Shown here in pieces: positions 5,416 through 33,800 of a stretch of DNA of 64,000 nucleotides; position 1 is the stretch's first letter; each line of letters opens with the position of its first letter. Both the position numbers and the translations under genes were made by a program. The notes beneath the pieces are model-generated. The model was given only the letters and a program-made list of their open reading frames with translations. It did no database searches and was not told the DNA's origin. Origin of the DNA: Rhododendron vialii (lineage: Eukaryota > Streptophyta > Magnoliopsida > Ericales > Ericaceae); the NCBI RefSeq assembly GCF_030253575.1, contig NC_080564.1:2462501-2526500 (forward strand). Direction: 5' to 3'.

Positions 5416-6908
5416 AGTTGCAAGCTTTTTCTATAAAGACTTCACACACTGCTCAAGTGTTTGAAGTTTGTAGTGTTTCCAGCAGCAAGGAGGTAGTAAT
5501 TTGGCCTTCCGCCCATTCACAACATTGAAGTTTTTCATGATTTTTTGATTTCATTGTTTCCCATTTTGGGGGACTTTCTAATGTTCTTGACATAGATAAT
5601 TTTTTTGGGTCTGATTTATTTACCGAAATGTGCTCTGGTTAGAGAATGGAAATGGCATATTTTTACATTTGTGTCGTGTTTTGTATTTGTAAGTAATTAT
5701 GGTGAAAATATTGTAGTTTGAGGCCTGAATTGCAATTTGGTGTGCATGTGGCAGAGGGAAATTAGCCAGGAGGACCATTTTTTGGGTGATCGTTCTACCA
5801 CTTCCTGAAATTTGATTCGCATTATGGACTTGTAAGTAGTTCAGGTGAAAACATTGTTGTTTTTTTAGACCTAAATTGCAATTTGGTGTGCATGTACTGA
5901 GGAAAATAGCCAGTAGGACCATTTCTGGAGCATCCAGCACTTCCTGAAATTCAATACTCCATTTTCAAGTGTTTATTTATATATACAACGCACATTATTG
6001 GGAGTATGGAATAGATTTTTTTGTTTACTTTTTCTGTACCTGTAACGCCACTAATTCTATATTTTTATGGGAGTATCGGCATTGCCTAAAATTAGCTTCT
6101 TTCGATAAATGCTATGATGAGCGTTATCTACCTACGCTCTTGTCGCTTGGTATTTGGTTAGAATTTTGTGATGAAAGGGCTGAGCTGGTGCCTGGTGGAG
6201 CTAGAGCCACCGCCTGCAGCTTCTCTGTGTTTTTTCGTTGTATTACATTACAAGGTGTCTCGGGTCATCTTATCTCCGCGTTGCATGCGCATTTCTATTA
6301 GAACCATTGCCTTGCCATCTTTCACTGGTGCATCTTACTATTCTTTTTTTTTTTTTGATCCTATCTTACTATTCTCATCGCGGTTGATTTTGGCGGTGCA
6401 TCTGACAATTATTACAACTTTCTTAGTCTATTTTATTTACGTCTTACTAATACCATAATAACTATCTGCAGTGAATACGATTTTCATATGATTCTCTTAC
6501 TATTTCATTAGAATTAAACTACGATACTAAAAAAACAAGTAACATATGAAACTTAAACACTAGTACAGTACTATTTTGATGCAAAATTCTTCTCTTCTCC
6601 GTCCCCCACCCCACCCCACCAAATACTTTGAACACTTGCAAAAATTCTTTCATGGCCCTTTTTTTTTTTTTAATAAATTCGATGGCCCTTTTTTTCTTTT
6701 TAAAAAAAATTAAATGTTAGGAAATTATTTACTACCCAACTCACACCGACCCAAACGTACTCCCATAATTATTGAAAAAGTGTATCAGTTGGATCGATGT
6801 TAAATTTTTCTTGGAAAGTCACAAAAACTTTATAAATTTAAAAGACGAGTATGTTTTGCACAACTCAGACTTCAAAAAATAAATTTGGGTTTGAGAAATA
6901 AAACAAAG
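5416..6908. other. Intergenic: 3' flank of the acyltransferase and promoter side of the HemD-like gene
   Basis: No gene. At about 5680-5780 and 5820-5940 a segment of roughly 120 bp occurs twice in direct orientation (shared words AATTGCAATTTGGTGTGCATGT and AGGACCATTT). The remainder is T-rich. The open frames at 5969-6458 show no family resemblance. Confidence 0.5.
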
Positions 6909-7880
6909 ATGGTGGTGGGAATGAAATCCCCAATGGCCGTACAAAACACCCAATCCCCCACCGTTCACAACCACTCCGCCGCCCGCCGTTCAATCGCTTT
7001 CACGACGCCGGAAAACTACGCCGCCCGTCTCTCCCACCTCCTCCGCCTCAAGGGCTGGGCCCCACTCTGGTGCCCCACCGTCCTCGTCCAAACCACCCCA
7101 CACACCAAATCCTCCCTCCTCCTCCACCTCTCCCCACCAAACCCTAACTCTAACCCCAATAATAAACCATCGCTCGAATCCTACTCCGCTATCGCATTCA
7201 CTTCCAGAACCGGAATCTCAGCTTTCTCTGAAGCCCTAGAAGACGCCGTTGAATCCCCCTTGCTCCCATACGGCGACGTTTTGACGATCTCTGCCCTAGG
7301 AAAGGACTCGGAGCTTTTAAAAGACGAATTTATCGAACGGATTTGCGAGAATCGTAAGCGAATTAGGGTTTTGGTTCCTAAAATATCGACGCCGGGGGGA
7401 ATTGTGGAGGAGTTAGGGTTTGGCGGCGGCCGGAGGGTTTTGTGCCCGGTGCCAGTTGTGGTGGGGCTGGAAGAGCCGTTGGTGGTGCCGAATTTCCTGC
7501 GGGAATTGGAGTCGAATGGGTGGGTGGCGGTGAGGGTGGACGCGTACGAGACGCGGTGGGCGGGGAGGGAGTGCGCGGGGGAGGTGGCGGGGAGGGCTCT
7601 GGGGGGAGGAGGAGAAGGGGAGGGGGGTTTGGACGCGGTCGTGTTTACGAGTACGGCGGAGGTGGAGGGGATGTTGAAGAGTTTGGGGGAGTATGGTTTG
7701 GATTGGGGGAGGGTGAAGGGGAAGTGGCCGGAATTGGTGGTGGCTGCCCACGGGCCGGTTACGGCGGCCGGGGCGGAGAGGTTGGGGGTGGGGGTGGATG
7801 TGGTGAGTGAGAGGTTTGCTAGTTTTGAAGGAGTTGTTGATGCACTTGCTTTGAGATGGAATAAAGCTTTGGAATGTTAA
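6909..7880 (+). CDS. HemD-like (uroporphyrinogen-III synthase family) protein, intronless
   Basis: A single exon of 323 codons with the two-lobed HEM4/uroporphyrinogen-III synthase layout. Lobe one begins SIAFTTPENYAARLSHLL and has AIAFTSRTGISAF, the counterpart of the substrate-contacting TS segment. Lobe two has DAVVFTSTAEVEGML and VVAAHGPVTAAGAERLGV, matching the conserved GPxTA and following helix, then ASFEGVVDAL near the end. The family cyclises hydroxymethylbilane to uroporphyrinogen III in plastids (haem and chlorophyll synthesis). The first ATG in frame is 6909. The frame is open upstream to a TTG at 6885, but that is not a normal start. The N-terminus is Ser/Thr/Asn-rich and may act as a transit peptide. 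It is a divergent member, so true synthase activity is inferred. The coding strand is C-rich in the first third and strongly G-rich from about 7400 to 7810. Confidence 0.8.
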   Translation: MVVGMKSPMAVQNTQSPTVHNHSAARRSIAFTTPENYAARLSHLLRLKGWAPLWCPTVLVQTTPHTKSSLLLHLSPPNPNSNPNNKPSLESYSAIAFTSRTGISAFSEALEDAVESPLLPYGDVLTISALGKDSELLKDEFIERICENRKRIRVLVPKISTPGGIVEELGFGGGRRVLCPVPVVVGLEEPLVVPNFLRELESNGWVAVRVDAYETRWAGRECAGEVAGRALGGGGEGEGGLDAVVFTSTAEVEGMLKSLGEYGLDWGRVKGKWPELVVAAHGPVTAAGAERLGVGVDVVSERFASFEGVVDALALRWNKALEC

Positions 7881-10800
7881 TCGGGATTCCCAAGTTGGAT
7901 TTGAGTTTTGTACGTTCAGGAATTTGGATGAATTTGATAATGAGGTTTCTTGCTTACAATTTCACCATAATGTTACATTTGCAACAATAGGTTTGAATGA
8001 CACTGTGAAATGTCACCAACGAGTGTAAATGCTCTTATTTTTTCGTCGAGTTTGTGGTAGTTCGCAGTGGAGAACCAAAGTGAATAATTTGTTTGTCGCG
8101 GCGGGGGTGGTTCAGGCATGGGCCAGTGGTGGCGGAGGGACGGAGAGGTGGCTGTATTCGCATCCTGTATCGATATCAGTGCTCTATAGGTCCGGTCGAA
8201 TTGCCAAGTTAAGAGTTTACCCTCAGCTAAACTGCCAAATCATCTGTTCCCCCCTTGGTGACTTCACAAATACATATAGATATCAAATGCGCTAACTTAA
8301 TTTAAAGCATTTATTCCCTCTGTAATTTTTTTTTTTTACGTAACTCAAAACAGCCAAATAGGATCTATCATGGCTGTTTTCAACGATTCTGGGTTGTTTA
8401 TTTCCTTGATAAGCGTATATCGCCAATGTCGGGAATATTGATAAAGATTTGGTCGAATCATATTTTAGATTAAAAATATGATTCGTTCCAATAGATCTCA
8501 ATATCCGATGAACTTCATTATTTGCATGGATTTACATGATCTTATTTAACCATTCAAACTATTTACATATATGAGACATCACATGACGGTCCAATGCTGG
8601 CACTGGCTGGATGCCGGCCGGCTGACTTTTAATATCCATGATATCTTGTGCTTGATAAAGACCGAAAGAATTAAGAATATTTTGGTTTGTCTAAGAAACC
8701 TGCGATGCTTTCGAAGATGCCACTTAACTCGTGTGGTAATGTAAATAAATGTACTAGTAGTTGACAAGCACATGGCTTGTGACAGGAGAATAACAAGCAC
8801 AAAATTTTACTAGGAGGGTTCTAACGTCATTCGCGCATCCATCGGTTATAGGCGGATCAACAACTTTGGTTTCGGCCTAGTTCAGGCTTTACATTTCCAA
8901 TATAGCTTTCTTCTTGTTGATTTCTCTCGTAAACTGATTTGATTATCTATTGAACTTCTTGCTCTTTCAAATGTGACTTTCTGCGAAATATGACGGGTTT
9001 TATTACTTTATTCAATATCAAGCTGAATAGATATACGCAAGAGTATATTTTTGATCTTAACTTACGCAAGAGGATTTTTTTTGGGATCAATTTGTAAGAT
9101 CTTATTATCTTCCAGAGTAGTCAATTGTGAATGTAAATATTATTCTTTTGTATCCTTTTAGTTTTGCTTCGTATTATCAATGTTTTTCACTATTCTTTAA
9201 AACTTATTATGTGACTTTCCGTGCATGACATGGTGAGTTTTATTTATAATACTAACATTAATTATACTGGGTAAACATACGTAAGAGATTCTTTTGATCA
9301 TAGCATAACATATTATATCAATGAGAGTATTTGAAATATACTTCACTATTCTTCCTCCCTCCTTCAGCTCCAGCTCTCTTTTCTCTCTCTCTAGACTGAG
9401 CACTGGCAGAGTTCTCAAGTCTTCTGCCCGCGAAGTTCCCCTGAGGTAGTGCAGTACCATCTTCCGGTACAAAATATTTCATCCATTTCAAGCTACTTTG
9501 CAGTTTGTGTTCCAATTGTGTATATGTTATTTATGTTTTCTAGTACGATTACATTCAGCCACTCAAAGAGTCTCATTTTGATGATCAGAGTCATTCATTT
9601 TGTTTTTTAGTTCAACCCCGTCGGTAAGTAAGGTCAAATAACAGTTGTTCCGATTCATTGCTTGAATAATCATTTGTTGAAGTCCACTTGAGTTAATTTT
9701 GTTATAGTTACTTGAGTTAATTTTGTTATAGTTTACAGCGAAACAAACCAAACTCTACAATGTGAACAACTCTAATTATCTAAGTAAGATTAGGTGTAGA
9801 CCCCACATAGGGTGGATAAATTCACTCTTTCGCTGGGTGGGTGAATAGAATTGCACTCTATAAGTTTGTGTGAATATTCACATGCTCAGATGGCGTACAC
9901 TTTGGTGGTCTTTTGATTTTTTTTCTACTTAATTTCACTCTCTTTCAAGTTTCATTTGAATCTTCTAGATATTTGGTTGGTATTGCTTATGTTATTGCTT
10001 GCCAATTTCTAGGTTCTTCTCTGTGGGTTCCCTTTTTATGGTATGCTGTGCATGCAGAGACGCAAACATCCACACATAGAATGAAACAAAAAGCTAAGAG
10101 AGTAGGAGAATGCAAATTGGAAACAAATGCAAACAAAGAGACTTCAACCCAGGACCTCCCATAAACTGTGAAACCATGCAAGATTACCATTCCAAAACCC
10201 AAGGCTGTTACCAACTGGCCCAAGAATGTATATCAAGCTATAAAACATGATATATGTGAGGCAACATAGTTGGATTTGAGTGCTCGCTTTCTGGTTGTTT
10301 TGTGCTTGTAATAAGATGTCTCCGGGGATCATATGATGAACTTGATTTAATTTTGTAATTGAATAAGGTTGCTATTCTGCAGAATTGGAAGAATCTCTCT
10401 CTTTAAGCGCATGCTCTTTAGATTTTTTGCACTTAACGATAAATTAAAATTTTGTCCTTACTCCTTATTCCTTAAAATCAGTTTTAAGGTTCATGACATG
10501 GGTGACGACAATGAAGGGGTAAAATTCAGTTAAGGCAATGAGGTAGAACAGTTTTGCACTGTTCATGATATTTCTGATGCAATGACATCTGATATGCCTC
10601 AAGTTATGACACAAAGTGTTAGAGAACTCATGTTTTCAAACACCTGTATGACCAGGGACGGATACAGGTGGGTGCCGGGGTGCCAGGCTCCTGCACAACA
10701 CTAAATTCTCCCCTTAATTATACTAGTTTTCAGGTTCATTTGGGAAAGTTTTTAAGGGATTGGCCCCTGCAAGTCCCTTGGCTTAAAAAAAAATCTTAAA

Positions 10801-10969
10801 GTTTTTATATCTGTTGGAAAAAAAGCCATAAAAAATTTGAAGTTAGCAAATATTTTGGGTTGCGTCTGTAAATTAAATGGCGGCTATGTACATACATGTC
10901 TCTTGCTCAAGCTTTTTCATAGCAATATATACTAATGAAATATACACTTTACTGTCAATGTAGAACATC
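7881..10969. other. Three-kilobase intergenic region without a recognisable gene
   Basis: AT-rich DNA with scattered open frames that show no family resemblance. A 24-bp unit (ACTTGAGTTAATTTTGTTAT...) is tandemly doubled at 9686-9733. About 10105-10240 holds a degraded repeat. The segment ending at 10969 is the 5' flank of the kinesin gene. Confidence 0.5.
9686..9733. repeat. Perfect 24-bp tandem duplication
   Basis: Two identical adjoining 24-bp units that begin ACTTGAGTTAATTTTG. The site is non-coding. Confidence 0.9.
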
Positions 10970-13900
10970 ATGTGGTTCGGGCCTCCTCTAAGTACAAATC
11001 TTGCGCCCAGTGCTACCCCTCCCAATGTCAAAAGATCTTCCTCAGTCAACTCTGTTGCTCTCTCAAACTTGGATGATTGTGAAAGCGATGGTTCCATTGT
11101 TCCACCACCGTAAGTTTCTTTCATTCTGCTATGTTGAGATGTCAGCTCTTGACCTTATGCCTACCTGTAAGGCATCACGGGCACTTTCCTCTCTTAGAAT
11201 AGATTGTGATGATTCTGTAATTGTACATAGGATTTGCTGCCTCAATGGCAATTCATGTAGAAGACTAAAGTTGATTTCTGTTGAATGTTATCTTTTGCAG
11301 TACATCAGCTACCCTCCAAAGGTCGGTTAGTACTGCTTCCCTCCAAAGGTCTGGTAGTACTGCTTCCCTCCAAAGGTCAGGTAGTCTGCCAGATATTGCT
11401 GGAGCTGTACCCTTTATTGAGAAATTCCAGGTGACAAGATATGCTTATGCTGATAATTATTATCAACTGTCCTATTAACCACCGCGAGGTGGGAGGTATA
11501 TAATACAAACAAAATGCTATTTTTAAAAAGTTTCAAGCACAGTTCACCTGAACCTGGAAATGACATTGAATTTTGATACACATTTCATGGACATCCTTGC
11601 ACATTTTACACATTAACCATTGCCTTAGAGCAGTTGTTAGCATTTTTCTACTCTTAATTGATTGCGACTCAAGGCTCTATTTGGTTTGTGGCTGCACATC
11701 CAAGTTTTGCTTTAGTGCTTCTGGTTACTGGTGGTTCAAAAATTTTGCCTCACTATATTCTTTTCTTTTTGGTTTGTTAGGTTGAGGGGTTTCTTAAGGC
11801 AATGCAAAAACTGAATAAATCTTTCGGGAGACACAGTTTTTTTCCCAGCATGTCCCTGGGCGCTCAAGTGCCGGAAAAATTCACAATTGAGGATATGTTG
11901 TGTTACCAAAAGGTGACTAGAAACTAAAAGTTTGATGAGACTTTGCTGTATTGTTGCTTATATTAACTGAAATTGAACTTGCATCTTTCAACAGGATCCT
12001 ATACCAACTTCAGTCCTAAAGATAAACAATGACCTAGTAAAACTGGCAGTTAAACTATTTAAGCATATTTTGAAGTACATGGGCGTTGATTCACCCGATG
12101 AAGTAAGCTTAGACGAACGTATTGAGCTTGTTGGGCAACTGTACAAGCAGGGTTTGAAGAATTCTGAGCTGAGAGATGAACTTTTTGCGCAAATTTTAAA
12201 GCAGACAAGGAATAATCCTGACAAGTATGCATTTAACCTACTCTAGGCATTGATGCATTCTTTATGCTTCATCTATTTTTATACTAAGTGCTTTCCTTTA
12301 ATTGTCGCTTTTGGAAAACAGGCAATATTCAATTAGAGCGTGGGAGTTAATGTATTTATGTGCGTCATGTATGCCTCCTAGCACGGATATTGGCGGATTT
12401 TTAACAGAATATGTTCGCAATGAGGCAGAGGGTGCGAATAGTGATCCAGATATCCAAGTCCTTGCGTTGAGCACCTTGAATACATTGAAGATTTCCTGTA
12501 ATGCTGGACCAAGGCAAAAAATACCTGGCCGTGACGAGATTAAAGCACTTTTGATTGGTAAACAGTTGAACACTACAGTTTTTTTCTTGGATGAAACTTT
12601 TGAAGAAATTACATATGGGATCTCGACGACTGTGGCTGATGCTGTTGAGGTACTATTGGACTTTTCCTTTTGCATGTGTTGATACATACATGATAAGGAG
12701 AGGTTAGAAATATAATGAGAAGTAAAATATTTAATGGGGGCAAACCAGTATGTTCAGGCATTTTATGCAAGTACCACGGAAACAAATTCTGAACGAAGTT
12801 CATAGATTCGTGGCCTCAGCCTGGTTGTTGAGAGTCTCCCTTTCTCAATCCCATGAAGTAGGAGATTAAAAGAAACTGCATGAATCTCACTGTGGAAGCT
12901 ACTTTTTGTCAGATTGATCAACAAGACAGTGGGGAATCTTGTTAGTCCTCGGTCTTAAACTCCATTGGATGGACATTTAGTCAATGCTTCCTAGACTTAA
13001 TCGAAAGGAATATTTCAATGATCAGAGTAGCAAAATAATAAATTCTAACTAGAGAACCGTCCTCTATTAGTTTCAGAATCCTAAATGTTTCACTAGCTTG
13101 ATAATTACATTAATTGGATGAGAGAATTTGGAAAAGAATGATTTGTCCAAATTGCTAGCAGAATTATCTGGTGTTTGAAAAATTCTTCACAATGTCTTCG
13201 ATAGAGAGGTTTCAGCTATCATTTTGGCTATTGCTTACTAGGCAATGACTTTTCTTCTTGTTTCTTAGCAAAATTGATCCATGCCTGATTCCTTTAGTGG
13301 TTTCAAAGATAATATGAGCGCATTCTGAAAGTTCAGATTGTAATTCATGGGAAAGGAGAAGATGCTTCATCAGGTCCGAATTAGTTGTATTCAAAGTTCA
13401 TACAAAACAGACTGTCCAACACTATCAGATGTGGCTGCTCAGGGAATTTTCAGGGCAATGACTGAGAATATTCACGTGCTTGCCCCTTTGCTGCTAAATT
13501 TGCTTGTGATGCATTTGCTGTGTTTTCTAAATTATGCGGGGTAGCGATTTCTTACAGAGTTTCTTAGCCATGCAACTCTTGATAATATGACGCCAACTAG
13601 TTCTTTCTTTCCAAGAAAACTCTTTCCATTCGCTCATGTTGCATGCTTGTATATTTTAAGGGGCCTCCTTGATTGCTAGTTTATTGCGTGCTAGTACATT
13701 CAACTCTACATATGTCGTTATGGCCACCTTGCTTTTCCAAAATTTGGACAATCATTTGAAATATTTAAACCACAGTTTTGGGTGCATATGGTGGATTTAT
13801 ACTCTACCCTTTTTCTTTTCTTTAACCCCACTTTAGTCCGTATGCTTCAATGATATCTTCTTGTGATTTATTAGTATTGTTTAACAGCATATCCGCTTCA

Positions 13901-16900
13901 GGAGCTTGCAGGGATTATTAAATTGCAAGCATATTCAAGCTTCAGTCTATTTGAGTGCCGGAAGGTTGTTGCCGGTTCTAAATCACCAGAACCTGGAAAT
14001 GGTATTTACATTAACCATGTGTTGTGAGATTTCTTGTAGTTTACCATCCTCTTAATGACCTTAACGGAGGCGAAGGGCCTTTTGTACTTCGTGGAGAGGT
14101 TGATCATAGTAATTGCATATACTAATGTTATTCTTCCTCTCTACCATGGACATAGGCACCCTGCCAAACCACGCAAGACCATGTATATGTCCTGGTCTTT
14201 TGCTTTCTTGGAGTTCGATTTGTTCTCTTTATAGTTTGTGATTACAACCATCTTGTTACTTTTGTAACACCTTGGTTCCTAATTGAAAGTTCTTTGAAAG
14301 GTCTTCTTAATAATGTGCACTTTGATGTATACAGATGAGTATATTGGGCTGGATGACAAAAGTTACATCGGGGATCTTCTAGCTGACTTTAAGGCACCGA
14401 AAGACCCAAGTAAAGGAGACCTGATGCTCCGCAAATTGGTATTTAGAAAGAAATTTTTTCGGGAGTCAGATGAAGCTATTGGAGCCCCAGTTTTTGTATA
14501 TTTATCTTATGTTCAAGTACGTAATCTTGTTTTGATTTTGTTTTTAATTGCTTAATCACATGAAAATATTCAACAATGCATTTGAAGCTTAAATTACTTC
14601 TGACATCTGAATCATTGATTTCTGGGCGTATTCTGACAGTTGCAATATGATTATATACTGGGAAATTATCCTGTTGGAAGGGAGGATGCGGCACAGCTGG
14701 CTGCATTGCAAATTTTGGTTGAAAATGGTTATGTTGTGAGCCCTGAATCATCCGCGTTAGTATTTGTTTTTCATCTGCAAATTTCAGTTGTAACATGGTT
14801 TTGTTGTATTCACTTCTTGTCGCATATTAGCTGCAGAGTTCTTTTTCATTTATTTCGCTGTGGTGGTGTTTTTCCTCATATGTTTCTTGTCTTTGTTGCT
14901 TATGCTGAAGCCAAAATGCATTATTGATTTCAGATTGTTTCCCTTTGGCGTATATAGAAACTTACTTTTCTCTTAAATGTTACAAATTTTCAGTGATTGG
15001 GCATCACAGCTGGATCACTTTCTACCAAAGCATATTGCAGTAAATCGACCAATTCGGGAATGGGTGTCTGATATTTTATTTCGGTACCGTTCAATGGTAA
15101 GAACTAAGAACACTACTATTTTGGAATTCCATATGAATTCGTAATTCACTTTTATGAAGGTAGTGTGGAGTTTCGTTTCCTTGTTTTTCCTTTATCATTT
15201 CTGTGTGATTCAGGATCAACAAGTGCATGGTAGAACTTTCTGTTTCCTTTCATCAGAAAAAAAACCAATTTTGCCCACTGCCATATTTGACTTGTCTTTT
15301 CCAGATAGAGCCCAATACTTTTTCCTCCGTAGTGAGCGATCTCTGTGGTTCTTATTTGATTGTTAGATATCTCCTTTGAATGATTATTTTTCGGGATAGT
15401 TGCAGAATATAAGGTTTTAGATTGAATTTTGTCTCTCTGTGTAGGAAAATCTTACAAAAAACGAAGCAAGACAACAATTTCTCCGGATCTTGAGAGCACT
15501 TCCATATGGGCATTCAATTTTCTTTACCGTTCGCAAGAGCGAAGATCCCCTCGGACTCTTGCCTGGGAAGTTTACTTTGGCCATCAATAACCGTGGGGTG
15601 AGCCTTAAAATAAGATTAAGTGTTGTAGACGCATTGTAGATTTGTAGTTACTGGGCACTAGTATGATCAACGCTCAATTTTTTTAACAGGTTCATTTTTT
15701 CCGCCCCATTCCCATAGAGTATTTGCATTCTGCTGAGTTAAGGGAGATCATGCAATTCGGAAGCAGTAATACAGCTGTATTTTTCAAAATGCGAGTTGCG
15801 AATGTGTTGCAAGTCTTTCAGTTTGAAACTAAGCAGGTACTTGACACTTTCTCATGGATCCATTGATATGTCAATTCTTCACATTTGCAACTGTGGCCTT
15901 TTTTTTTTATATCATTTATGTTGTTGTATGATTTTTCTCCGTCTAATTCAGGGAGAGGAAATCTGTGCCTCTCTTAAAACCCACATAAATGATGTCATGC
16001 TACGTAGCAACTCAATAGCAAAGTCTGCTGCTAGTGTGTCAACAAATGGAGATATTTCTGATAAGTTTAGGCCTTCCAACGGTGAGGCTTATGAGAAACG
16101 CATCGAGGATTTGTCCAGAGCTCTCGAAGAATCACAAAGGGCTGCAAATCAAGTGAGCAATTTCGCTTTTGAAAACCTTGCTTATTGTTTCTTTTCGTTG
16201 TATAAGTAGTCAACCATAAAATCCTCGAAATGGTCCTGAAATAAAACTGTTGTATAAGTAGTCAACTGTAGTAAATATTCAATCGTTGTAATAATAAGAC
16301 CAATAGATATACAATTAGGTACCAGTATTCCCGGTGAAGTAACCAGATTTTTACAACTGAAAAAAGTGCCGCGCTATACGTTGTAAAAGGGAGTTAGGTG
16401 ATGTCAGAATATCTCATGGAATTTGCACTTGACAATAGTTTGGGTATGCTTGCAGTTGTTGGAAGAGCAACGTGAGAAACAAAAGCAAGAAGCGAAACTG
16501 CAAGAAGAATTGGAAAGCCTGAAAGGTGTTTTGAGATCCGAGGAGGAAAACTTAATGGAAGTTACTAGTGATCGCGACAAACTCAGATCTTTGTGTGATC
16601 AAAAAGATTCGGCACTGCAGGTGACTGACTATGCTTTTGAAATTAGTTATCCAATAGTTGCTCATTTACTTACTTGTACTAGTGTTTTGGTACTTATCAG
16701 GCTGCTTTATCTGAGAAACGGAACATGGAAGAGAAGTTGACAACGCGTAGTACTAGGGTGTTTGAGAGTAACGCCAGCAAGGAGCTAGTTGAAGTAAATA
16801 AAAAGGTATACTTGTTATTGCACTCCCATTGCCTCTTATTCTTAGTCTTCTATTCCATTCTGGAATCTGGACAATTTTTTTCTGACTTAAATTAGTCTTA

Positions 16901-19900
16901 AAAGTAGGGATTTAAGGGGCAATGTTGGGAATCTGATTGCACTCGACTTGTATTACATGTAATGTCCACTTAGACGGTTGTAAGTCCTAAAATAGACGAA
17001 CAAAAAGGATAGAGGGTGTACATCGTGTTGTAGTCAACTGAATTGTAGGTACGTAGACAGTTTCTTTCTAGGTAGCTACGTGAAAATTCATTGAAAAAAG
17101 GATCAACATTATGTACAAAGGGGTAAAAACTCAACTGTGCTTAGTTTCAAAACAACTTTCACGGCTATTAGGTGCTGTTAGAATTTCTAAGGAACTTCAG
17201 CAATCTGGGTATGCAAATGCAGTTATTGGAAGAACGACGTGAGACACAAAAGCGAGAAGCGAAACTTGAAGAAGAATTGGAGGGCTTGAAAGCCATTTTG
17301 AGATCCGAGAAGCAAAACTTAATGGAAGTTACTAGTGATCGCGACAAACTCAGATCTTTGTGTGATCGTAAAGATTCGGCACTTCAGGTGACTGGCTATG
17401 CTTTTGAAATTAGTTTCCCTATAGTTGCTCATTTTCACTTACTATGTAGTGTTTTGGTACTTATAGGCTGCTTTATCGGAGAAACAGAGCATGGAAGCGA
17501 GGTTGGCAACGCGTGGTAGTAATACAGTGTTTGAGAGTGCTGCCAAAAAGGAGCTAATTGAAGAAAATAACAAGGTATACTTGTTAGAATTCTACTCCCT
17601 CTGTCTCCCATGCTTAGTCTTCTATTCCATTTTAGAATGTCACAAAATATTAGTCTTTTCGGAAGAGTCAAAAGAAAAAGTGTGTAGATTCCAAATCTAA
17701 CCTTCATAAAGGTAGTTTTAAAAGTGGGGATTTAAGGAGCAATTTTGGGAATCAAATCCGACTTGCCTTGTCTTACATGTATGTCCCTTTAAACAGTTGA
17801 AGTCCCAAAATAGACTAACAAAAAGGGACAGAGGGAGTATGTCATATTGTAGTCAACTCAAATCCAGGTAAATGGCTTCTTTCTAGGTAGCTAATGAGAA
17901 TCCATTGAAAAAGGATCAACGTTATTTACATGCAAAAGGGGCAAACCCTCAACTGCTTGACAAAAGAGGTTCTACAAAACACTACCATGGCCAAACCGAA
18001 GAACATATGTTTCTCAATTTAAAACAAAGCTAGAGCAATAATATCTCTTGCACAACCAACCATTCACCATCAACTTGACATTCCTTAAGCTCTTCTATGA
18101 CTTGTAATTCCGTGAAACTTGCACGACACCATCTAATGCCCAGTTCATCTCCTTTTTTACTCCTTTAAGTTCCTTCTTAATACGCTTCAATTGTCTGATT
18201 CAATCCGTTAGTTTCGAAATATCTTTCAAGGCTATTCATTTGCTTAATTATTGTTCAGAAAGTCTTCGGATTATAACTGATAACTATTGCTTTCCTTATG
18301 ATTGTTTATGCCTAGGTTTTACAAAAGATCCAAGATGAATTGAACATGTGCAAGTCAGAGTTGCGTGCATCAGAAGAAACTAGAAGAAGACTGGTTAATG
18401 AAAAAAAAATGTTGGAAGAAAGAATTGTCAGCCTTGAAAGGCAGAAAGCTGAGGAGGTAATAATTGGAATCTTTGCTTTCTAAAACAAACCTAGGCCAAT
18501 TTTTGCTTGGAGAAGGCTTTGATGTCCCCATGGCCCTGGAATGCAGGTGGAAATTCTTCAGGAAAGCTTTGAACAAGATAGCAAGGCCACTAACCTTCAA
18601 GTTTCTGAACTTATAACAAAGCTGGAAGAGGTTACACAAGCTTTGGCTATGACACAATCGAGTCTTGCGACCAAAGAGAAAGAACTTTCCTCTTTGAAAA
18701 ATGATTACAAGGAACTTGAGGAACTCAGAGAAATGAAAAAGGTGGTGATGGTGATCTCATGCTAAATTCTTCAGTATTTTGCTAGTTTTAGGGGATATGG
18801 TTTTATTCCTTATCTATTGTAGACATATGACTGTATTTGTTTCGGTTTGTAGATAAATATCTTAAATTTTTTACTGAAGGGTTCTTGGTTTTAGGACATT
18901 GATCGAAAGAATGAGTCAACTTCAGCGCTCTTGATGATGCAAGGTGCACAATTAGCTGAATTAGAAACACTCTATAGGGAAGAACAAGTCCTCAGGAAAC
19001 AATATTTCAATACAATAGAAGGTAGAATATTCCCCTTTATTTTCCCACCGGTATGAAGGAAACTTTATTGTTGGGTTTGATTTCCCACCTTAAATCATCG
19101 TAATCTTATTGTCACATGTTTATAATTTGAAAGATTCAACTTTCTTATCCAATGCTTGTATTCACCATTGAATTTTTTTTGCACACGTCAGACATGAAAG
19201 GCAAAATTAGAGTCTTTTGTCGATTAAGGCCTCTTTCTGACAAGGAGATTGCTCAAAAAGAAAGAAACGTGCTTCAAACTATAGATGAGTTCACTGTTGA
19301 GCATCAGTGGAAAGATGATATAAAACAACATTTGTATGATCGTGTTTTTGATGGCATTGCCTCCCAAGAAGATGTATTCGATGATGCAAGGGTAAGTTCA
19401 ACTAATTTGAGCGGTTTGTTGACATTTAATGTTTTTGGAATACGATATACCTACTATGTTGCAGCTTCGTAGGTTCTTCTCACATTTTTTGTAATATTAT
19501 TGGATTCTCATTTACCTTTTTCTGAAATATCGATGCAGTATTTGGTGCAATCTGCAGTAGATGGCTATAATGTGTGTGTGTTTGCATACGGCCAAACTGG
19601 TTCTGGAAAGACATTTACAATTTATGGCTTGGAGGATAATCCCGGGCTTACGCCACGAGCTGCATCTGAACTTTTTAGAATTCTGAAGCGGGATAGTAAA
19701 AATGTTCAATTCTCTCTAAAGGTAACAACTATATATCCCATAAATCTTTGGTAGTAGTTCAACATTGGGAAAACATACTTGTTTCATTATTTTTTATCGA
19801 TAAGCAGAACCCGTTCTTGAGTAAACACACTTGTTTGATGATCTCACAAATTTATTCACCATTTGATGCATCTTCTGTCTACCCATTAGATGCATAATTT

Positions 19901-22023
19901 TAAATCTGTACGGACACATACAAGTGGTCTGTTTATCCGGCTACCGATAAAAGCTATGGCTAGTTTTACTTTGTCTACATCATGGTTGTAAGTTAGTACA
20001 ACTAACTTAGCATTATCTTCATCAACTTGCTTTGGATAAATGTCTTACACATCAACCTGAAAATATGCAGGTATATATGGTGGAGCTATATCAAGATGTA
20101 CTAGTCGATCTTTTATTACCGAAGAGTTCAAAGCGTTTAAAATTAGATATCAAAAAAGATTCAAAGGTGATTATACGTTTTTCTCATTGGATATTGACAC
20201 TTTAATTGTATGTAAATTTGCATGTTTGACTTTTACAAACTTTTCTTCAAATTGACTATTATTGGTATATTGAAATGTGCAGGGCATGGTATCTATTGAT
20301 AATGTGACAGTAGTATCAATTTCAACACTCGACGAATTGAATAGTATCATCCGGAGAGGATCTGAACAACGACATACAAGTGGGACTTCGACGAACGAGC
20401 ATAGTTCAAGATCCCATGTAATACTTTCCATTGTCGTTGAGAGTACCAACCTTCAAACTCAATCCGTGGCTAGAGGAAAGGTATTATTTTTGGTAACACT
20501 ATATCATTTCAATGAATATGGAGACATCTACCTTGACGGGATAAGACTTAAAAGAGCTTCTCCAATAGGCTAGACAAATGAGACCTGAAAGGCATTTTTG
20601 TTAGTCTAACTTTGTGCCTTGAAACTACCTAAATGTATCGAACTTCTATATTTATATCCCTCTTTCTCTCTACCTAAAATAATAGGTTTTGGATGACTAG
20701 CTAAAATAAAGAGTAGTGTTATATACTTGCAATACTTATTTTGCTTATTCGTCTCACCATTCTAATTGTGCAGCTAAGTTTTGTGGACCTTGCCGGTTCT
20801 GAGAGAACGAAAAAGTCTGGCTCTCATGGTGTTCAACTCAAGGAAGCTCAAAGCATTAATAAATCACTTTCGGCTCTTGGCGATGTCATCAGTGCTTTAT
20901 TTTCTGGCAATCAACACATACCTTACAGGAATCACAAGTTGACAATGTTGATGAGTGATTCACTTGGTGGTAACGCTAAAACGCTGATGTTCGTGAACAT
21001 ATCCCCGGCTGAGTCGAACTTAGATGAGTCAAACAATTCTCTAACGTAAGTTCTTAATTGTTTTCCTTTGTGGTAGTTAAAACTCCCAAATTTTTCCGAT
21101 TCACTTGGTGACAATGCTAAAAACACTGATGTTCGCAAACATATCCCCGGCTGAGTCAAACTTAGATGTGGCTCACAATTGTCTAACTTGTTAGACTTTA
21201 TCCCAAATCATTTACCTAAGCCATCCAAGCTTGGTTATATATAATCTAGAGTCTACTCCATCTATTGCCAATCGGTTTTAAGTTGGACCTCTCCAAGAAA
21301 TCTTATCAAAGCTAGATCTTGGGTGACCTCGTCTCATACGGACAAGTCTCCGCTTGAGTCAATTTCCTCACCTCCTCAATTCATACAAGTACCTCCACGT
21401 GCTACCGGGCTAACGTGTCGAGTTTATCCCACATCGCTCCTCACCTCCCTGAGTTTTCCATTGAGTATCGATGCAAGGAAAGTACATTTAGTCGTAAAAT
21501 CATGAGCAATCCATTAGGAAAGCAACTGAATAGTAATTCTTCTCTTACTATGTCATTTTTATGGATAATCTTTATATTCTTACCATCACATGTTGACTCT
21601 AGCTTCAATTTCTTATATCTAACCATATCATAAACTTTCAGGCGGTTTCTGAATAATGGATATTATACATGGATTTACTAATGGGAAATTTTTTTTTTAG
21701 GAACCACATTTGTGAATTTAAATTCGACTGTTCATTATCTTATTGTACCCAAATAAGTGCATGCAATTGTCGAAATCAGCAATAGAAAATAATAAGAGGC
21801 CAAACTATGCATTTCCTTGACGTAGACCATGACGGTTCTATTGTAATATTTCAGGTACGCATCAAGAGTTCGGGCAGTCGTCAATGATCCAAAAAAGAAT
21901 GTTTCATCGAAGGAAGTACTTCGTTTGAAAAAGTTGTTGGCATATTGGAAGGAGAAGGCGGGTAGGAAGGGAGACGATGAAGATCTAGAAGAGATCAAAG
22001 AAGACCGGCTAACAGAAGAGTAA
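10970..22023 (+). CDS. KCBP: Kinesin-like calmodulin-binding protein (KCBP/ZWICHEL), MyTH4-FERM C-terminal motor
   Basis: Twenty-five exons join to 1361 codons without an internal stop: 10970-11109, 11301-11430, 11781-11912, 11995-12224, 12322-12649, 13902-14001, 14335-14516, 14640-14755, 14994-15096, 15445-15597, 15690-15836, 15952-16152, 16456-16620, 16701-16805, 17223-17387, 17467-17574, 18316-18456, 18547-18741, 18895-19021, 19192-19391, 19539-19721, 20071-20166, 20283-20480, 20774-21045, 21855-22023. Order: low-complexity N-terminus (1-90), MyTH4 (about 120-280), FERM (about 285-610), coiled coil (about 615-985), minus-end-directed motor (about 990-1310) with [16 protein letters not shown] and DLAGSE, then the calmodulin-binding helix [21 protein letters not shown] links microtubules to calcium signalling in trichome and cell-division control. 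Arabidopsis KCBP is about 1260 residues; the excess equals a duplicated 91-residue exon pair. The ATG at 10970 follows an in-frame TAG, which also forms a possible acceptor, so an upstream exon is possible. A GTAAGG donor overlaps the stop, so an alternative last exon is possible. Confidence 0.93.
11308..11382 (+). repeat. 27-bp in-frame tandem repeat in the KCBP N-terminal exon
   Basis: One partial and two full units encode [16 protein letters not shown] and STASLQRSG, followed by the start of another (SLP). The repeats sit just before the conserved [12 protein letters not shown] segment. The RSxS pattern is Ser-rich and basic. The function is unknown. Confidence 0.9.
16440..17970 (+). repeat. 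Tandem duplication of a KCBP exon pair with flanking introns
   Basis: Exons 16456-16620 and 16701-16805 (55 and 35 residues) recur as 17223-17387 and 17467-17574 (55 and 36 residues), with the same splice phases and the shared words [17 protein letters not shown] and KDSALQ. The downstream introns are also alike up to about 17130 and 17970, including the words TTTCTTTCTAGGTAGCTA and AAAAAGGATCAAC. The unit is about 765 bp. All four exons start and end in phase 0, so either pair can be skipped or both kept. Confidence 0.93.
17595..17838. mobile_element. Stowaway-like (Tc1/mariner) MITE in a KCBP intron
   Basis: Ends are CTCCCTCTGTC and its complement GACAGAGGGAG, flanked by TA on both sides. 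This is the standard plant Stowaway terminus. A more diverged copy occupies the equivalent intron at about 16822-17018 (CTCCCATTGCC to GGATAGAGGGTG), so the MITE was present before the exon-pair duplication. Confidence 0.8.
21098..21187 (+). pseudogene. Partial copy of a KCBP motor exon inside the following intron
   Basis: About 90 bp repeats the end of exon 20774-21045 (original 20958-21045: GATTCACTTGGT through TCTAAC) a short distance downstream. It has one extra base and several substitutions, and lacks a good donor at its end. It would encode part of the [13 protein letters not shown] segment if read. It is most likely a dead tandem duplication. Confidence 0.8.
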
Positions 22024-22544
22024 GGCCAATGGACGTTACCATGTGGAATACATACATCTATACATAAACATTTGTTGAAGTTGGTAAATTCTTGTTGATG
22101 GATTCTCTCACGTATAAGGAGCGATACAACAACAAACATGTCGAAAATGTTGTACCGTGTTTTTTTTTTTTCTCTCTCCGGATAATTGTTTTTCTTTTCA
22201 GAGGCCCGAGGATGGAGTGCTAGATGAGGGTAGGAGAATGTTTCACAGGAGTACTGCTGGTTGTTTGTAATAATACGTATTGATTCTTATGTATCTAATA
22301 TTTTGTCTTAGAAGGCACAAAAGCATTTTCTTTCAGCAAACATACTTTTTCCCCCCCAAGGGGGAAACTATTTCTTGCAATAATCTTCTTTTTAGCAGAT
22401 TTCTTGCAAGATTAGCTCCATGGAAAAAATGATGCAAGGAACTTGGATCTAACGTTTATCAAACTTAAGGTGGCTCTTTAGTGTTTGTAGCAGAGTTTTC
22501 AAACTGTCACTCTAAACAAAATTTGTGTTTGTATCCTAGTGAAT

Positions 22545-22934
22545 TGTTGGGTCGTGACCCGACCCTCGAATTTGCATCCCCAAGCACAAGCACGAAATCA
22601 ACCAAGCACAAACGAGAGATATTTGAGAAAATACTCCTTGTATATATTTACACACATATACAATTGAAAAAACCTCTACGGGATAGCCACAAACCGGCTT
22701 CCCCACTCCTCTCTCTCCCTCACTCCGGTGGCTCTCTGACAGTCTCTTCAGACATCTCCGAGGAGCCCCGCTCCTCCCTTTGGGCCGGAAAGCTCTCAAG
22801 CTCACACTCTCCCGCCCTCTCCCACTATCTAGACCACACACACACTGCCGAAAGGCAGTCCAAAATAGGAGAAAGGGGACCAAGGCGTTATATCCCCTAC
22901 AACACACACCCACACACTTGGGTGTACCCCAACA
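22545..22934. mobile_element. Solo-LTR-like fossil of an LTR retrotransposon
   Basis: About 390 bp begins TGTTGGGT and ends ACCCCAACA, the usual TG...CA form with short inverted ends, and is flanked by GAAT on both sides (the fifth base differs). No internal region is present. The family (Copia, Gypsy or TRIM) cannot be told. Confidence 0.5.
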
Positions 22935-23783
22935 GGAATCACATTGTGCACATCTTGTTTGGCACCATACATGAATCCACCTATTCACGCGTAGCTCGGG
23001 CTGGGGCTGGACTCGTTTAAATTTTGTTTGAGATTTATCGATTTGGAAAACAAACGAGCACGGGTCAAATTTTTCGGCTCTTTTGGTAACTGAATTAAGC
23101 TCGAGTACACTTTAAGAGCTTGAGAAGGCTGACAGAAATAAGAATATGTGTATAATGAATAGATATAGGAATAAAACATTTCGATATGTGAATTATGGTT
23201 GTCAAAAATATTAATTATTGTGTGATTAAACTGATTAACATGGTGAACATGTTTCTATACTTGGTCCACATCTCGTCTATTATTTCTTAACGTGAATCTG
23301 ATTGAGGCTTCTTTTCTCTTTGAGGTTGAGCTCGGTTCATTTATATAAATGTGATTGAGTTAGACCTTTTCAATATCAGACCAGTCGAGCTCGAGCGGGC
23401 TTAATTTTCATCGGATGGAGAGCTCGAACACCAAAAAAACTCAGCTCGACTCGGCACATATCCCTATTCAAATTACATGCCATTGTGCTACGTAAATTAC
23501 ACTACTGCGTCATTGTAAGCAAAAAGCAAAGTATGGATTGCCAAAATAAGAACCAAACTTAGACCATGCCCTCCGCAAATAGTTTTTTTTTTGGGGGTAA
23601 ATACGGCAAATAATTTTTGCTATAACGAAAATAAAAACACGAGGACAGAAAACACAATAGTTACATAATTAATCCAAACAATTCACCTAGTTCAGATTAA
23701 TAAGTACAAGAAGCAAAAAACGTAACCCTAACGATTCATCTGGTCCATAATATGGAGCTGACATCCGTTACGCTTGCGAAAAA

Positions 23784-24048
23784 GCTACGGGTACCGATCA
23801 TAAGGGTGTGCATATTGTATAGATGATGTGTGGGGCCCACTAATGGGTCCCGTACAAATGATTTGATCCGATCTGCTCGGTAATTTGAAATTTTTTTTTC
23901 CGGAAGTAAGTCTTGTGAAAAATCAGCTCTATTAAATATTTATAAGTGATTGATCCAATAGCTAAATTTTTCTCAGATCATTTGAGCGGGATCCATTAAT
24001 AAGCCCCAAACAGTACAATATTTATACGCCTATGGTCGGTACCTACAG
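23784..24048. mobile_element. Degraded MITE, related to the copies near 56.0 and 61.1 kb
   Basis: The arms GCTACGGGTACCGATCA and its imperfect complement (GGTCGGTACCTACAG) lie at the two ends. The interior has the GTGGGGCCCAC and AAAATCAGCT...ATTGATCCAAT words shared with 56018-56404 and 61136-61504. Confidence 0.5.
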
Positions 24049-27886: not shown

Positions 27887-30800
27887 CTACACCATACTGT
27901 CATCGTCACCATATTGTTCGTAGCTCGAACGCGGAGCCCATTCCGAAACGAAATGGGACGTTGGCAAGGAGTTCGTGTCCGTTGTTGTGGAAGTGATATC
28001 TCCCCCTCCCACGGGCATCATTGAAGGCCAAACGAAAGCTGGTCTAAACGGCGGCACATTGGGAACTGGCACTGAACCTGATATTATCTGAACAATCTCC
28101 TGAGTCTTAGGCCTTTGGCCCGCTATTGGATGGGAACATGCCAAGCCCAGAAGCAGCACTCTCTGAGCTTCCTCGATCACGTAGTCTCCCCCGAGTCTCT
28201 TGTCCACAGCATCCAGTAATTGCCCATCGCGGTGCAAAGACCAGATCCAATCCACCAACAACTGGAACCCACCAATCTTGGTTCCGGGTCGTAGCCCAGA
28301 GACTACTTCCAACAAGACCGTGCCGAACGCATAGACATCCGACTGTTGGGTGGCCTTGCCTGTGTGGAAGCACTCGGGTGCGATGTAACCCATCGTCCCG
28401 AGCACACCCTCAGCCGTCCCGGCATATGAGGTCTTCTCATTGTCGAGGGCCCGAGCGAGGCCGAAGTCCCCGAGCCGGGAGTTGAAGTCTGAGTCGAGCA
28501 TGATGTTGCTGGCCTTGAGGTCACGGTGGACCACCCTTTGGTCGTATTCGTTGTGGAGGTAGTGAAGGGCGGAAGCCACCCCGGTGATGATCTTGTAACG
28601 GAGATTCCAGCCCAGTGGCTTGCTATCAGCTCCGCCGAAGAGGTGAGCGTCGAGGCTGCCGTTAGGCATGTATTCGTATACCAATAGGAGCTTGCCGTTC
28701 TTGTGACACCATCCTAATTGTACATAGAGATAAGTTGTTAGAAATACACGTATCACAAGCAAGACTGCAAGAGAAATATGCTATATACAAAAACTCCTGC
28801 AAACATGCTTAGTTTTAGACAACAAAGGGATACAAGTATGCACTGTTGAAACAAAGTGAAGTTTCAACATTGCTTTGAAATGAGAAGATAAACCAGCAGA
28901 TACGGTTTCTCGGAGAGTGCAAACATGCTTAGTTTTGGACTTGGGTACGTTTGTCGGGTGCAGGAACTTGTCTAAGTGAGGAATTCATCTAATTTTCATC
29001 ATATGGGGATACATTGAAATATTCAAATATCTTTCTCGAAAAAGTAGTGTTTTTTTTATCGGTCGGAAAAATAGTTTTTACAAAGGGTCCAAGGGCATTT
29101 TTCTACATTATAGGAGCGATCAATTTCTTATTACACAATATACTTGAAAGGCGAATGGCCAACAAAATATGCCGGATACAGACTTCATATCAGTACCCGG
29201 GTGTGTTTGATTTGGGTCTCTAGGCTTGCCTTCTCTGATGCCTTTCGGCTTTGATTTGAGGGCTTAGTTCCGCAGCAGAACGTCCATTTAGCTCATCGGT
29301 TCTTGGAGGTATAGGGGGCTCACTATTTTAGTGGTATTCTAAGAGCAATTGCTTGTCTATATGTTGCCAAAGGTTATGTTTGTCTCAAATCCCCCACCCA
29401 TATTCCCAAGGATTGAGAACTAGATGGGTTCTGTTATTGTTATTGTTGTTATAAAAGGCTACATGTAACAAAGCCTCTCAATGAGTGGAAAGATCCCTAT
29501 ACATATATAAAACTTTTTCGCCCCTTGGTTTTTCCTTTTTTTTTTGCCAATATTGTATATATCAGCGGGGGTTAGCGGAGTGTTAGTATGTTAGTTCACA
29601 GGAAGTTCAGAGGCTGTTCATATCCCTGAACCCCAAACCGCCCCTCGCGGGGCTCGAACCATGCCTCCACTAGAGGAGGCGTACCAACTTAGCTCTCACA
29701 CAAATCTTGGTGTCTCTCTCTCCGTTTTTTTTTTGGATCATCATCTTGGTGTCTCTTGGTTGCCTATTTTGCGCCTTCTGTGTTGTTGTCTTATTCAATT
29801 TACACTTGACAGGAGTACCAAATCCCTTGCACATTTTTCAGTTCTCCTGTTTCAATCCCCAAGAACACTTTTTTGCTTTACTCTGTTCCATTCAGTCGAA
29901 ATTAGGAGTTGAACCTCTTACCTATTTGGCATCCATCCATAGTTTCATAGTAAATCAAAGAAAAGTCGCATATTTATTTCTAAATAGAATACAAATGGAA
30001 AAACCTAACTGTTAGAGATATATCCTAGTTTTGCACTGGTAGATGCTGTGGTCCTTGAAGTGGGTAAGGTGCCTAAATTGACTCTTCAACCAGTTTATGA
30101 TACCCAAGTCTGACTCAACCACCCTTCCTAACTCATACATTTCTCCAAAGGAAACAGCCATGAAAAAATGAATCTATTTATTTGAGGGTCTAAGGCCATC
30201 CCCGTCAAGTAAGTCGGTCATGGGTTATTTGGTAGGTTATGTGATAAGGAATTCACAAGCCTTCTCAACCTTGGGTTACCATTAGTCTAAAATTTAGAAC
30301 TTCTCAACCTACTTGACCGTGATGGCCTTAGACCCTCAAGTAGGGTTGGCATCTTTCCATATTTAGAGTCTAAATATGGAAAAATGCCAACCCTACTTTG
30401 ACCCCTTGTATTGATCTTGGACCAATTGAAAGTGGAAACCACAGGCATGTTCTTTACTTTTCATAAATTTTGCTCGAATGAAAGTGATCTCCTTGGCTTC
30501 TTGCAAAACATAATTCATTTCCTAATTATCAGTGTTCTAAAAGTTGCTAGGTGTTAGTCTAGCGGTTGGCTACCTTCGAGCTTCGAGGCCTAGTAGTCGG
30601 CGATTAATTGGTGCATAGAAATTAGTAATGGGCGATTAATCGGCGCATAACAATTAGTTGGATCTAGTTCGATAGTTCCCGCCAGCGATTAATCCTCGAT
30701 AAATTCCGATTTTTAGAACCCTGCTAATTATGGTCTCAATGGTATATCGTGCTATCTCCAACCATACGTTCAGTTCTTCTTCAAAATGGAGGAAGCTTAA

Positions 30801-33800
30801 ACCATACTTCAAATTTTCACAATGAAGCTTTTCCCCTTATCTTCAACTAGAGCTAAACTCCTGCCAAAGCCAAATTGTTGACACAAACTAGACCCTGCCC
30901 TCCACTAGTGTGACGAATATCAATTGGCTAAGGATTGATTTGACAACGTTAATCTAGAAACTGTACTAGTCATACGATGGGAAGTCGATAAAGGACACTA
31001 TAGAATTCATATGACCTTATTGTGGTTATTAATACTATGATGGATGCAAGTCATCCCGTTGATGAAACATCAAGTACTAGATAAGGCAATCAATTCTACA
31101 ATACAGAAACATCAAGAAGTGGACCCAAAAGTATTAAAGATCTAAGATGAACTAAATGGCTAAATTTCAAAAACAAAATCTTGGACTTACCCAGAAGCCG
31201 GACAAGATGTTTGTGCCGGAGACGATTGATGATGGTGAGCTCAGCCAAGAAATCATCCTGACCCTTCAAATTTCCCCTCGAAAACCACTTCACCGCCACC
31301 TCCAGATTCTCATTCTGGAGGTGGCCTCTATACACCACTCCATAACCGCCCTGCCCCAACTTGTTCTTCCCATCGAAGTTGTTAGTCGCCTTCTTCAAAT
31401 CCTTGAATTTGAACTCCCTTGGAGTCCCAGGCAATTTCGTCAGTGCCCCTAATATGTTTGAATTCGACCAGGCTAGTCGCCTTTTTCGGCGGTAATAATA
31501 GCCCATCACCATTGCCCCCACCAGCACCAGCAACAATACTGACACCCCTACTCCAATCAAAATCCCTATCCACGGTTTCTTTCCCTCCGGAAAATATTGC
31601 ACTGTCAAATTCCACCTCAAAACGCAGTTGAGCTGCTCGTAAGTCCCGGTTGATGCCGAAAACCCGAAGTACGAGTGCTGATCCACTATTCCTCTTAGAT
31701 CAAGACTCGTTTTTAAAACCGGGTCATCTGGCCTCGGAGGGGTATCCCCGTCCTTGTCAGCCTGTCGGGTGATGAAAACGGCAATCTCTTTTTTGACACC
31801 GTCATACTGGACCCACACATTGTGAAACCTGGCCTCGCCAGCTGGAGCAATATCTATACCCAACGGGTCCAGTGAGGTGACATTCCTAGACTTGACGCTG
31901 TTAATGTCGAGTCCAATGTGATTTGCATCAGCATCAAAATCATTGTCCTTGAAGGTATCAATTTCGACAGCGACGATTTTGTTTGTTGGGGAGCTGTCGG
32001 TGGTAGCGTTAGTGAGGCCCAAGTACTGCCCGGAGCTGTTCAGCGGGAGGAAGTCTGGCCCCACGAAGAAGGCTAGGCCTTCGGCGGGGGTGGTGTTTCC
32101 GAACCGGTAGATGTTGATGAGGAAGGAGGTATTGAATGAAGCGATTCGAGTGGAGGTTGAGTTGATGCTACCTTCAGGTGATTCAAGAAATCTCAGTCAG
32201 TGACAACATACACAAGTGTCACAGTACATGAATTATTGAAAATCTTTAGTGCAGTTGCAATGTGTAGGGTCCTGCTTATTGGTATCATATTAATAATTTC
32301 TTATGCATAAGCATTTAACAAAATCTACGATAAAATAAATCCTTTGGCTACACCTAGAGCTCCTCCAACGCAGCTGCTATTCCCATCGTATACCAGCTTG
32401 GACAAAAAGGATGCTTCAATGGTCTGCCATTGAAGCCATCCAAATTCGGCATTGCTATACCTGGGGTCAATTTTTTTTGTTTGTTTGGTAATTAGCCTGT
32501 GCCAAATTTGACACAAAGTAATTAAACGAGATCCAACGTCGAGATTTCCATGTTAACAAAATACAGTCCTATGACAATTTTAAGGGTAGAAAACAAAAAA
32601 TGTTTGATATTACTATATTAGAGCGCCATCGCCAAAATTTAGCAATTAGAGAAAGTTCACCCATTAATAATGAAATAACTTTGTCAATTTCAAAAAATAA
32701 CAATATGGCTAATTCGATTCAGTGTTATTTTGGCACAATATCAAACTTGAGATGGCTGGGGTAGCGTCGCAGATTCGGAAAAGCCATCAAAGATGTTTTT
32801 GACATTTATTGAGACAAAAAGACAGCGTGGTGCGACTTGAATGCTCAAAAAATCTGTCAAGTTATAGTTTTAGCAGCCAAAACGGCAACGGTAGCAGTCC
32901 ACCGTTTGGAGATGTTCTTTCCTGTTTGCTTCGCTTATGGCTTAAATTTCCTTATTGAATAGATTCACGGGAAATAAGCAGCCAATTTTTTCACTTAACA
33001 AAGTGATTGCCTATTGCAATGAGCAAACAGGTATCAGACTTAGGTGTTAAGAATAAAGAGGTCGGCAGTTCAACTCTTCTCCTAAAGTGCTAATTTAACT
33101 ATTAAAAAAAATTATTTTATTTTATGCTTTTATTTCTCAAACTACCACCCATTTTTCTACTTCATCTAGAAACTATCAAAACCACCTATTTCGTCCTTAA
33201 ACTATCATAATCTCACCTATTGAGTCCAAACTACGAGATTTGGACTCATTAAATGACCCATTAAAGGACTAAGGCCTCCTTCCGCTAAGTTTCTTATTTT
33301 TATTTTCTGCTTTATGAGATAGGTCATTCTCTCACAATACATCACATTTAATTCAAAAAATAAATATTTATATTAATTAAGGGAACGGGGCCTAATTAGT
33401 TCATTAAAAGACTAATTGGACTCAAAGGGTGGGATTTGGATAATTTAAAGACGAAATTGGTGCTTTTGATTGTTTAAAGACAAAGTAAAAAAAGAGGTGA
33501 TAGTTTAATGGATAAAAACATAAAATAAAAAAACTCTTAAAAGGGGAGCAAACGGGCCTCATTTCCGGATAAAAAAAAAACAAAAAAAAAAGAGGCCTCA
33601 TTTCTACTTCCAATTACCTGATACTGATACTACACTTCGAAGAAAACTCCCAATTTAAAAGAAACTGATGTTTTAGAACTATGCAAATACATAGAAGAGT
33701 TTTTTTTTTTTTTTTTTTAATCCCTCAAATTATCACTTCTTTTTGTACTTCGTCCTTAAACTACCAAAATAAACCATTTCGTCCTTAAACTATCGTAATC

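Follow-up and report, generated by a model that had tools for sequence, protein, structure and literature searches.

Tandem duplication of two coiled-coil stalk exons in a KCBP-type kinesin gene of Rhododendron vialii, with probable inclusion of both copies

The 64,000-nucleotide stretch of Rhododendron vialii contig NC_080564.1 analysed here (the window) carries a gene for a kinesin of the KCBP type, a plant kinesin that ties microtubules to actin, in which two neighbouring stalk exons are present in two tandem copies. The gene was re-derived on the forward strand at 10970-22023, from the ATG at 10970 to a stop codon ending at 22023, with 25 coding exons and 24 introns, all 24 of them GT-AG; its start codon and last exon were placed from the sequence only. 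Translation with all exons gave 1361 residues and no internal stop. The Pfam search located a MyTH4 domain (residues 182-286, E = 5.5e-26) and a FERM_M domain (residues 399-510, E = 2.3e-18) on the N-terminal side and the kinesin motor PF00225 at the C-terminus (residues 1000-1314, E = 6.6e-105), and Microtub_bd, the microtubule-binding kinesin piece, was also matched. The best PDB match was 1sdm, which we take to be the potato KCBP motor (residues 989-1355, E = 6.5e-198), followed by 3h4s (residues 981-1359, E = 5.4e-194). These two matches to KCBP motors include the regulatory C-terminal end, and the next kinesin structure, KIFC3, was far behind (E = 1.5e-78). Given the MyTH4-FERM tail, the C-terminal motor and the lead of 1sdm and 3h4s over KIFC3, the gene is assigned by its sequence to the KCBP/ZWICHEL-type kinesin-14 proteins, in agreement with the initial annotation; calmodulin binding and minus-end motility are predicted by class only.

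The alignment of the stalk region, together with blastn, showed that exons 13 and 14 are repeated as exons 15 and 16, which confirms the tandem duplication proposed initially. Exon 13 (16456-16620, 55 codons) codes for coiled coil and exon 14 (16701-16805, 35 codons) for coiled coil followed by a weak, hinge-like end. Exon 15 (17223-17387, 55 codons) is the copy of exon 13, with 45 of 55 residues identical, and exon 16 (17467-17574, 36 codons) is the copy of exon 14, one codon longer. All four lie on the forward strand between GT-AG introns, with every boundary in phase 0. The exon lengths and phases given beforehand were recovered, as were the product lengths of 1361 residues with both pairs and 1270 without exons 15-16. 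The protein would count 1271 residues without exons 13-14 and 1180 without all four, all of these forms being open, and each combination tried (full, without 15-16, without 13-14, without 14-15, without all four) stayed in frame.

The copied unit measures about 780 bp, begins within intron 12, ends within intron 14 and is wider than the interval first marked (16440-17970). Copy 1 (16393-17171, forward strand) comprises the end of intron 12, exon 13, intron 13, exon 14 and most of intron 14; copy 2 (17172-18236, forward strand) includes a stretch of about 250 bp (17958-18207) that has no counterpart in copy 1. The copies exhibited 90% identity over 217 nucleotides without gaps, and with blastn one matched the other at 76% of 809 aligned positions (E = 1.3e-166). 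Chance similarity of this extent can be dismissed. The edges of the unit, taken from the alignment and blastn, are approximate (about 16393, 17172 and 18236), and outside them the ungapped identity of the copies dropped to 12/60 on the left and 15/60 on the right. The end of copy 1 (17141-17169) matched 18208-18236 at 86% (E = 0.001). The intervening 250 bp of copy 2, for which blastn gave no further match in the window at E 0.001, may be an insertion or the trace of a deletion, both being compatible with the alignment. The sequences to the left of copy 1 and to the right of copy 2 have just TT in common, and a repeat search of positions 8000-24000 (at least 40 nucleotides) found no pair linking the two unit edges, so that the duplication appears not to have been driven by a long repeat.

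Intron 16 contains a well-preserved element resembling a miniature inverted-repeat transposable element (MITE) at 17595-17837 (forward strand), with inverted ends CTCCCTCTGTC...GACAGAGGGAG and TA flanks on both sides. We presume it to belong to the Stowaway family; the name was given without comparison to a library. A worn counterpart lies in intron 14 (16823-17018, forward strand), the similarity of the two being detected by blastn, and the element looks like one that was present in intron 14 before the duplication.

The aligned introns of the two copies exhibited 94 differences over 458 sites (20.5%), corresponding to a Jukes-Cantor distance of 0.24, and 12 internal insertions or deletions (indels), two edge gaps among the 14 gap events having been dropped before the indel rate was taken. 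With plant substitution rates of 1.5e-8 to 2.5e-9 per site per year, the duplication would be about 8 to 48 million years old. Exons 13/15 differed at 18 of 165 sites (10.9%; nonsynonymous distance dN 0.084, synonymous distance dS 0.272), about half the divergence of the introns (Fisher p = 0.006), and share an identical run of 54 bases (16547-16600). Exons 14/16 also had 18 differences, over 105 sites (17.1%; dN 0.189, dS 0.156), and the pooled values were dN 0.123 and dS 0.224; two of the Fisher tests used nonsynonymous counts rounded to 11 and 25. Set against the introns, these divergences indicate that the coiled-coil exon 13/15 looks constrained, whereas the hinge-like exon 14/16 does not. 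Polarised with the Arabidopsis sequence as we assume it to read, three of the exon 13/15 differences fell to exon 15, none to exon 13 and seven were undecided, and we base no claim on this count.

The exon alignment contained a single indel, of three bases and in frame, where the intron rate would predict 7 (Poisson p = 0.007). Exons 15-16 were free of stops and frameshifts and had kept their GT-AG sites. We then simulated the chance that a pair unselected since copying would have escaped any stop, frameshift or loss of a splice base. This probability was 0.0065 for exons 15-16 (20,000 trials); in a rerun with 40,000 trials each it was 0.0068, and 0.0048 with the intron rates taken outside the MITE-like element. 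In the same way, treating exons 13-14 as the unselected pair gave 0.0070 and 0.0047. Since both pairs are intact at about 20% intron divergence, both are, to judge from substitutions and indels, most likely in use and translated, a statistical argument drawn from a single sequence.

We consider it probable that both exon pairs are included together and that the main product is the 1361-residue form. The sequence presents the two copies in tandem, and the history that we propose is the following. A stretch of about 780 bp that starts within intron 12 and stops within intron 14 would have been duplicated head to tail, the copies being joined, to judge from the edges, at a two-base overlap. The copy would have brought along exons 13-14, their splice signals and the MITE-like element already residing in intron 14. 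Both pairs would since have been kept open and spliceable, and the default mRNA would include all four exons, an outcome expected from the phase 0 ends, the ordinary GT-AG sites and the ample introns. The resulting KCBP would carry 91 extra residues, made up of coiled coil and hinge, after the FERM domain and before the part of the stalk next to the motor, and the optional skipping of one pair could yield a minor isoform.

The splicing signals lean in the same direction. The donors of introns 13 and 15 have the same nine bases and those of introns 14 and 16 are likewise identical; intron 14, with 417 nucleotides, is long for steric exclusion; and the phase 0 boundaries of exons 13-16 allow double inclusion or double skipping without a frameshift penalty. 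Strictly exclusive use, in which each mRNA would carry either exons 13-14 or exons 15-16, could build on adjacent homologous exon pairs of near-equal length, the usual raw material of such splicing, and it has a plant precedent in FLM/MAF1 of Arabidopsis, whose mutually exclusive exons are described in PMC3266260 as backed by transcript data. However, it would need the two exons within each pair to be coupled, and the known enforcing devices (a very short intron, a mix of U2 and U12 sites, a frame penalty, competing RNA pairing) were looked for and none was found. None of the 24 donors matched the U12-type strings tested, and in a simple docking-selector scan of 15 region pairs, with 40 single-base shuffles each that did not preserve dinucleotides, none of the 15 beat all of its shuffles, the best pairing being reached by 3 to 36 of the 40; this RNA-pairing part of the check is weaker than the others. 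Exclusive use is on these grounds very unlikely. The identical donors, the length of intron 14, the common phase and the docking result make the evidence lean to additive inclusion, and of the statement that the pairs suit exclusive or additive splicing the frame compatibility holds, whereas the two outcomes do not stand on an equal footing.

An optional cassette is the foremost of the alternatives, yet still an unlikely one: one pair would be present in most transcripts (1270 or 1271 residues, close to the Arabidopsis length) and the other limited to some tissues, giving long and short stalks, which the in-frame combinations would permit. Exons 15-16 lie between the MITE-like elements of introns 14 and 16, whose ends can pair with each other (-24.2 and -21.9 kcal/mol), which might promote skipping, but self-pairing within each element is possible as well (-16.3 and -33.9 kcal/mol); neither set of energies has a shuffled control. 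Intron 14 folded more stably than its shuffles, of which 1 of 100 did as well (z = -2.78), a result to which we gave no weight beyond the inverted ends of its element, and intron 16 showed no advantage over its shuffles (z = 0.94). With 7 pyrimidines in 16 positions, the exon 15 acceptor is together with those of introns 21 and 22 the joint lowest of the 24 introns, compared to 9/16 for exon 13. Combined with the pairing element ends, this pyrimidine-poorer acceptor could favour partial skipping of exons 15-16; the identical donors speak against such skipping as the rule. Judged from these signals, additive inclusion would come first as the default, optional skipping next and mutually exclusive use well behind.

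Several points weigh against additive inclusion. Exon 15 may have a weaker acceptor than exon 13, and the strongest docking pair, formed by the unique part of intron 12 with the stretch upstream of each exon pair, was equalled by as few as 3 of 40 shuffles, a borderline comparison that would suit exclusive use. Taken alone, exons 14/16 show no constraint (dN/dS 1.22; p = 0.50 against the introns), and the divergence figures by themselves are compatible with one constrained and one free copy. The intactness test hinges on indels: its rate rests on 8 to 12 events, the simulation starts from the present-day sequence, and the probability rises to 0.026 at half the intron indel rate and to 0.096 on substitutions alone, versions that weaken the support. 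The heptad scores used below for the stalk come from a home-made table and not from a published predictor. Two of these observations would favour exons 15-16 being a dead, skipped copy that is intact by luck, as exons 14/16 diverge as fast as introns and intactness is not unusual on substitutions alone. Intron 24 offers a parallel: a second copy of the last 89 bases of exon 24, in the motor domain, lies there at 21098-21187, outside the exon model, 85.6% identical and with a one-base insertion. Local copies in this KCBP gene can thus decay; exons 15-16 have not. Against a dead copy stand the simulated probability of 0.005-0.007 at the intron indel rate and the divergence of exons 13/15, about half that of the introns, so that we hold it to be as improbable as exclusive use. 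An error of assembly, or the joining of two haplotypes in succession, has a negligible probability: an intron divergence of 20.5% with many indels is far too high for alleles or an assembly error, the 250 bp specific to one copy likewise exceed ordinary allelic differences by far, and the edges show a clean tandem junction. The duplication is old, and the copies are neither an artefact nor ordinary alleles.

The length of the single-pair form, 1270 residues, had been noted as close to that of Arabidopsis KCBP, which agrees with the deletion numbering in PMC4574192, running to residue 1266. From this length it follows that the stalk exon pair is present once in Arabidopsis KCBP. The Arabidopsis sequence as we presume it to read, residue by residue, likewise has a single pair. 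The P-loop threonine, residue 1081 in the full Rhododendron model and 990 without exons 15-16, corresponds to residue 982 of Arabidopsis KCBP in the same paper (PMC4574192). Counted from this threonine, and assuming no net indel in between, exons 13-14 correspond to Arabidopsis residues 647-736, which fall within the coiled-coil segment 615-749 reported there and precede the dimerisation coil predicted at 749-855 in PMC3689661, a source in which residue numbers may be shifted by a few positions. The Arabidopsis tail 1-749, unlike 1-614, promoted dense microtubule bundles and F-actin bundles in vitro, according to PMC4574192. As the segment 615-749 adds bundling to the tail in vitro, the expected effect of the additive form would be a longer or stronger cross-linking stalk.

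In our heptad model, the coiled coil runs through exon 13 into exon 14 and then slips, and in the same way runs through exon 15 into exon 16 before a gap. In the additive form exon 15 starts in the register of exon 13 through a single slip in exon 14, and the protein would be a coil-hinge-coil-hinge with 91 residues more. The idea of the 91-residue insert as a tidy, register-keeping set of 13 heptads was rejected, as a slip or gap in exon 14 or 16 appeared in all four modelled isoforms containing either of these exons; for the same reason the register across exons 14/16 is not a strong constraint. A more far-reaching scenario would be a lineage with a second functional bundling coil, making long (1361 residues) and normal (1270 or 1271 residues) motors from one gene, with splicing setting the microtubule/actin spacing and the MITE repeats of introns 14 and 16 modulating it; we regard it as speculative and quite unlikely.

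Elsewhere in the KCBP gene, a 27-bp tandem repeat of about three copies was found in exon 2 (11308-11389), in the N-terminal tail, its product resembling repeated motifs of basic residues and serine. The scan of prokaryote genome contigs with the exon 24 motor piece returned three loci, none of them a KCBP with stalk; compared to the full protein they matched only the motor (residues 1034-1318, 944-1293 and 1216-1275, the second with part of the neck) at 27-44% identity. No relative was found in viral contigs with the exon 5 piece, and the window gave no Rfam match at gathering scores and no tRNA. Upstream of the KCBP gene, an open reading frame (ORF) on the forward strand at 6804-7880 has a uroporphyrinogen-III synthase domain (HEM4, E = 6.7e-17). 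Downstream lies a cluster of apparent L-type lectin receptor kinase genes or pieces, at 27887-32196 on the reverse strand and at 43706-46146, 50660-53314 and 56477-59271 on the forward strand; of its eight long ORFs four were scanned, all with a legume-lectin domain and three with the start of a kinase. Transposase-like ORFs, presumably of MULE type, occupy 38639-40851 on the reverse strand, and the one scanned (38642-39469) contains a SWIM zinc finger.

By position, the repeated exons belong to the stretch of coiled coil that makes the KCBP tail a bundler in vitro in PMC4574192. The duplication could have a visible mechanical effect, the 91 extra residues possibly changing reach or the spacing of bundles, and a natural KCBP carrying its bundling segment twice would offer a convenient way to test whether the spacing of cross-links depends on stalk length. 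In our literature searches, no title on a duplication of KCBP stalk exons was among the titles listed. The domain order is that of Arabidopsis KCBP/ZWICHEL (At5g65930), a kinesin-14 with a MyTH4-FERM tail, but the Rhododendron vialii model has 25 coding exons compared to the 22 exons in all given for the Arabidopsis gene in PMC4574192. Like FLM/MAF1, the KCBP gene is a plant gene with neighbouring homologous exons; whereas the exclusivity in FLM/MAF1 is supported by transcripts, the KCBP exons are known from genomic DNA and show no device that would enforce exclusive use. What took place belongs to a well-known kind of event, tandem exon duplication, here in frame within a coiled coil. Such duplications, giving alternative or additive exons, were reportedly described by Kondrashov and Koonin in 2001 and by Letunic et al. 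in 2002, and the KCBP case resembles them in its adjacent in-frame copies of internal exons with homologous introns. It differs from the typical case in that two exons were copied jointly instead of a single one, and in that the copy sits in a coiled coil, where an addition would be easily tolerated.

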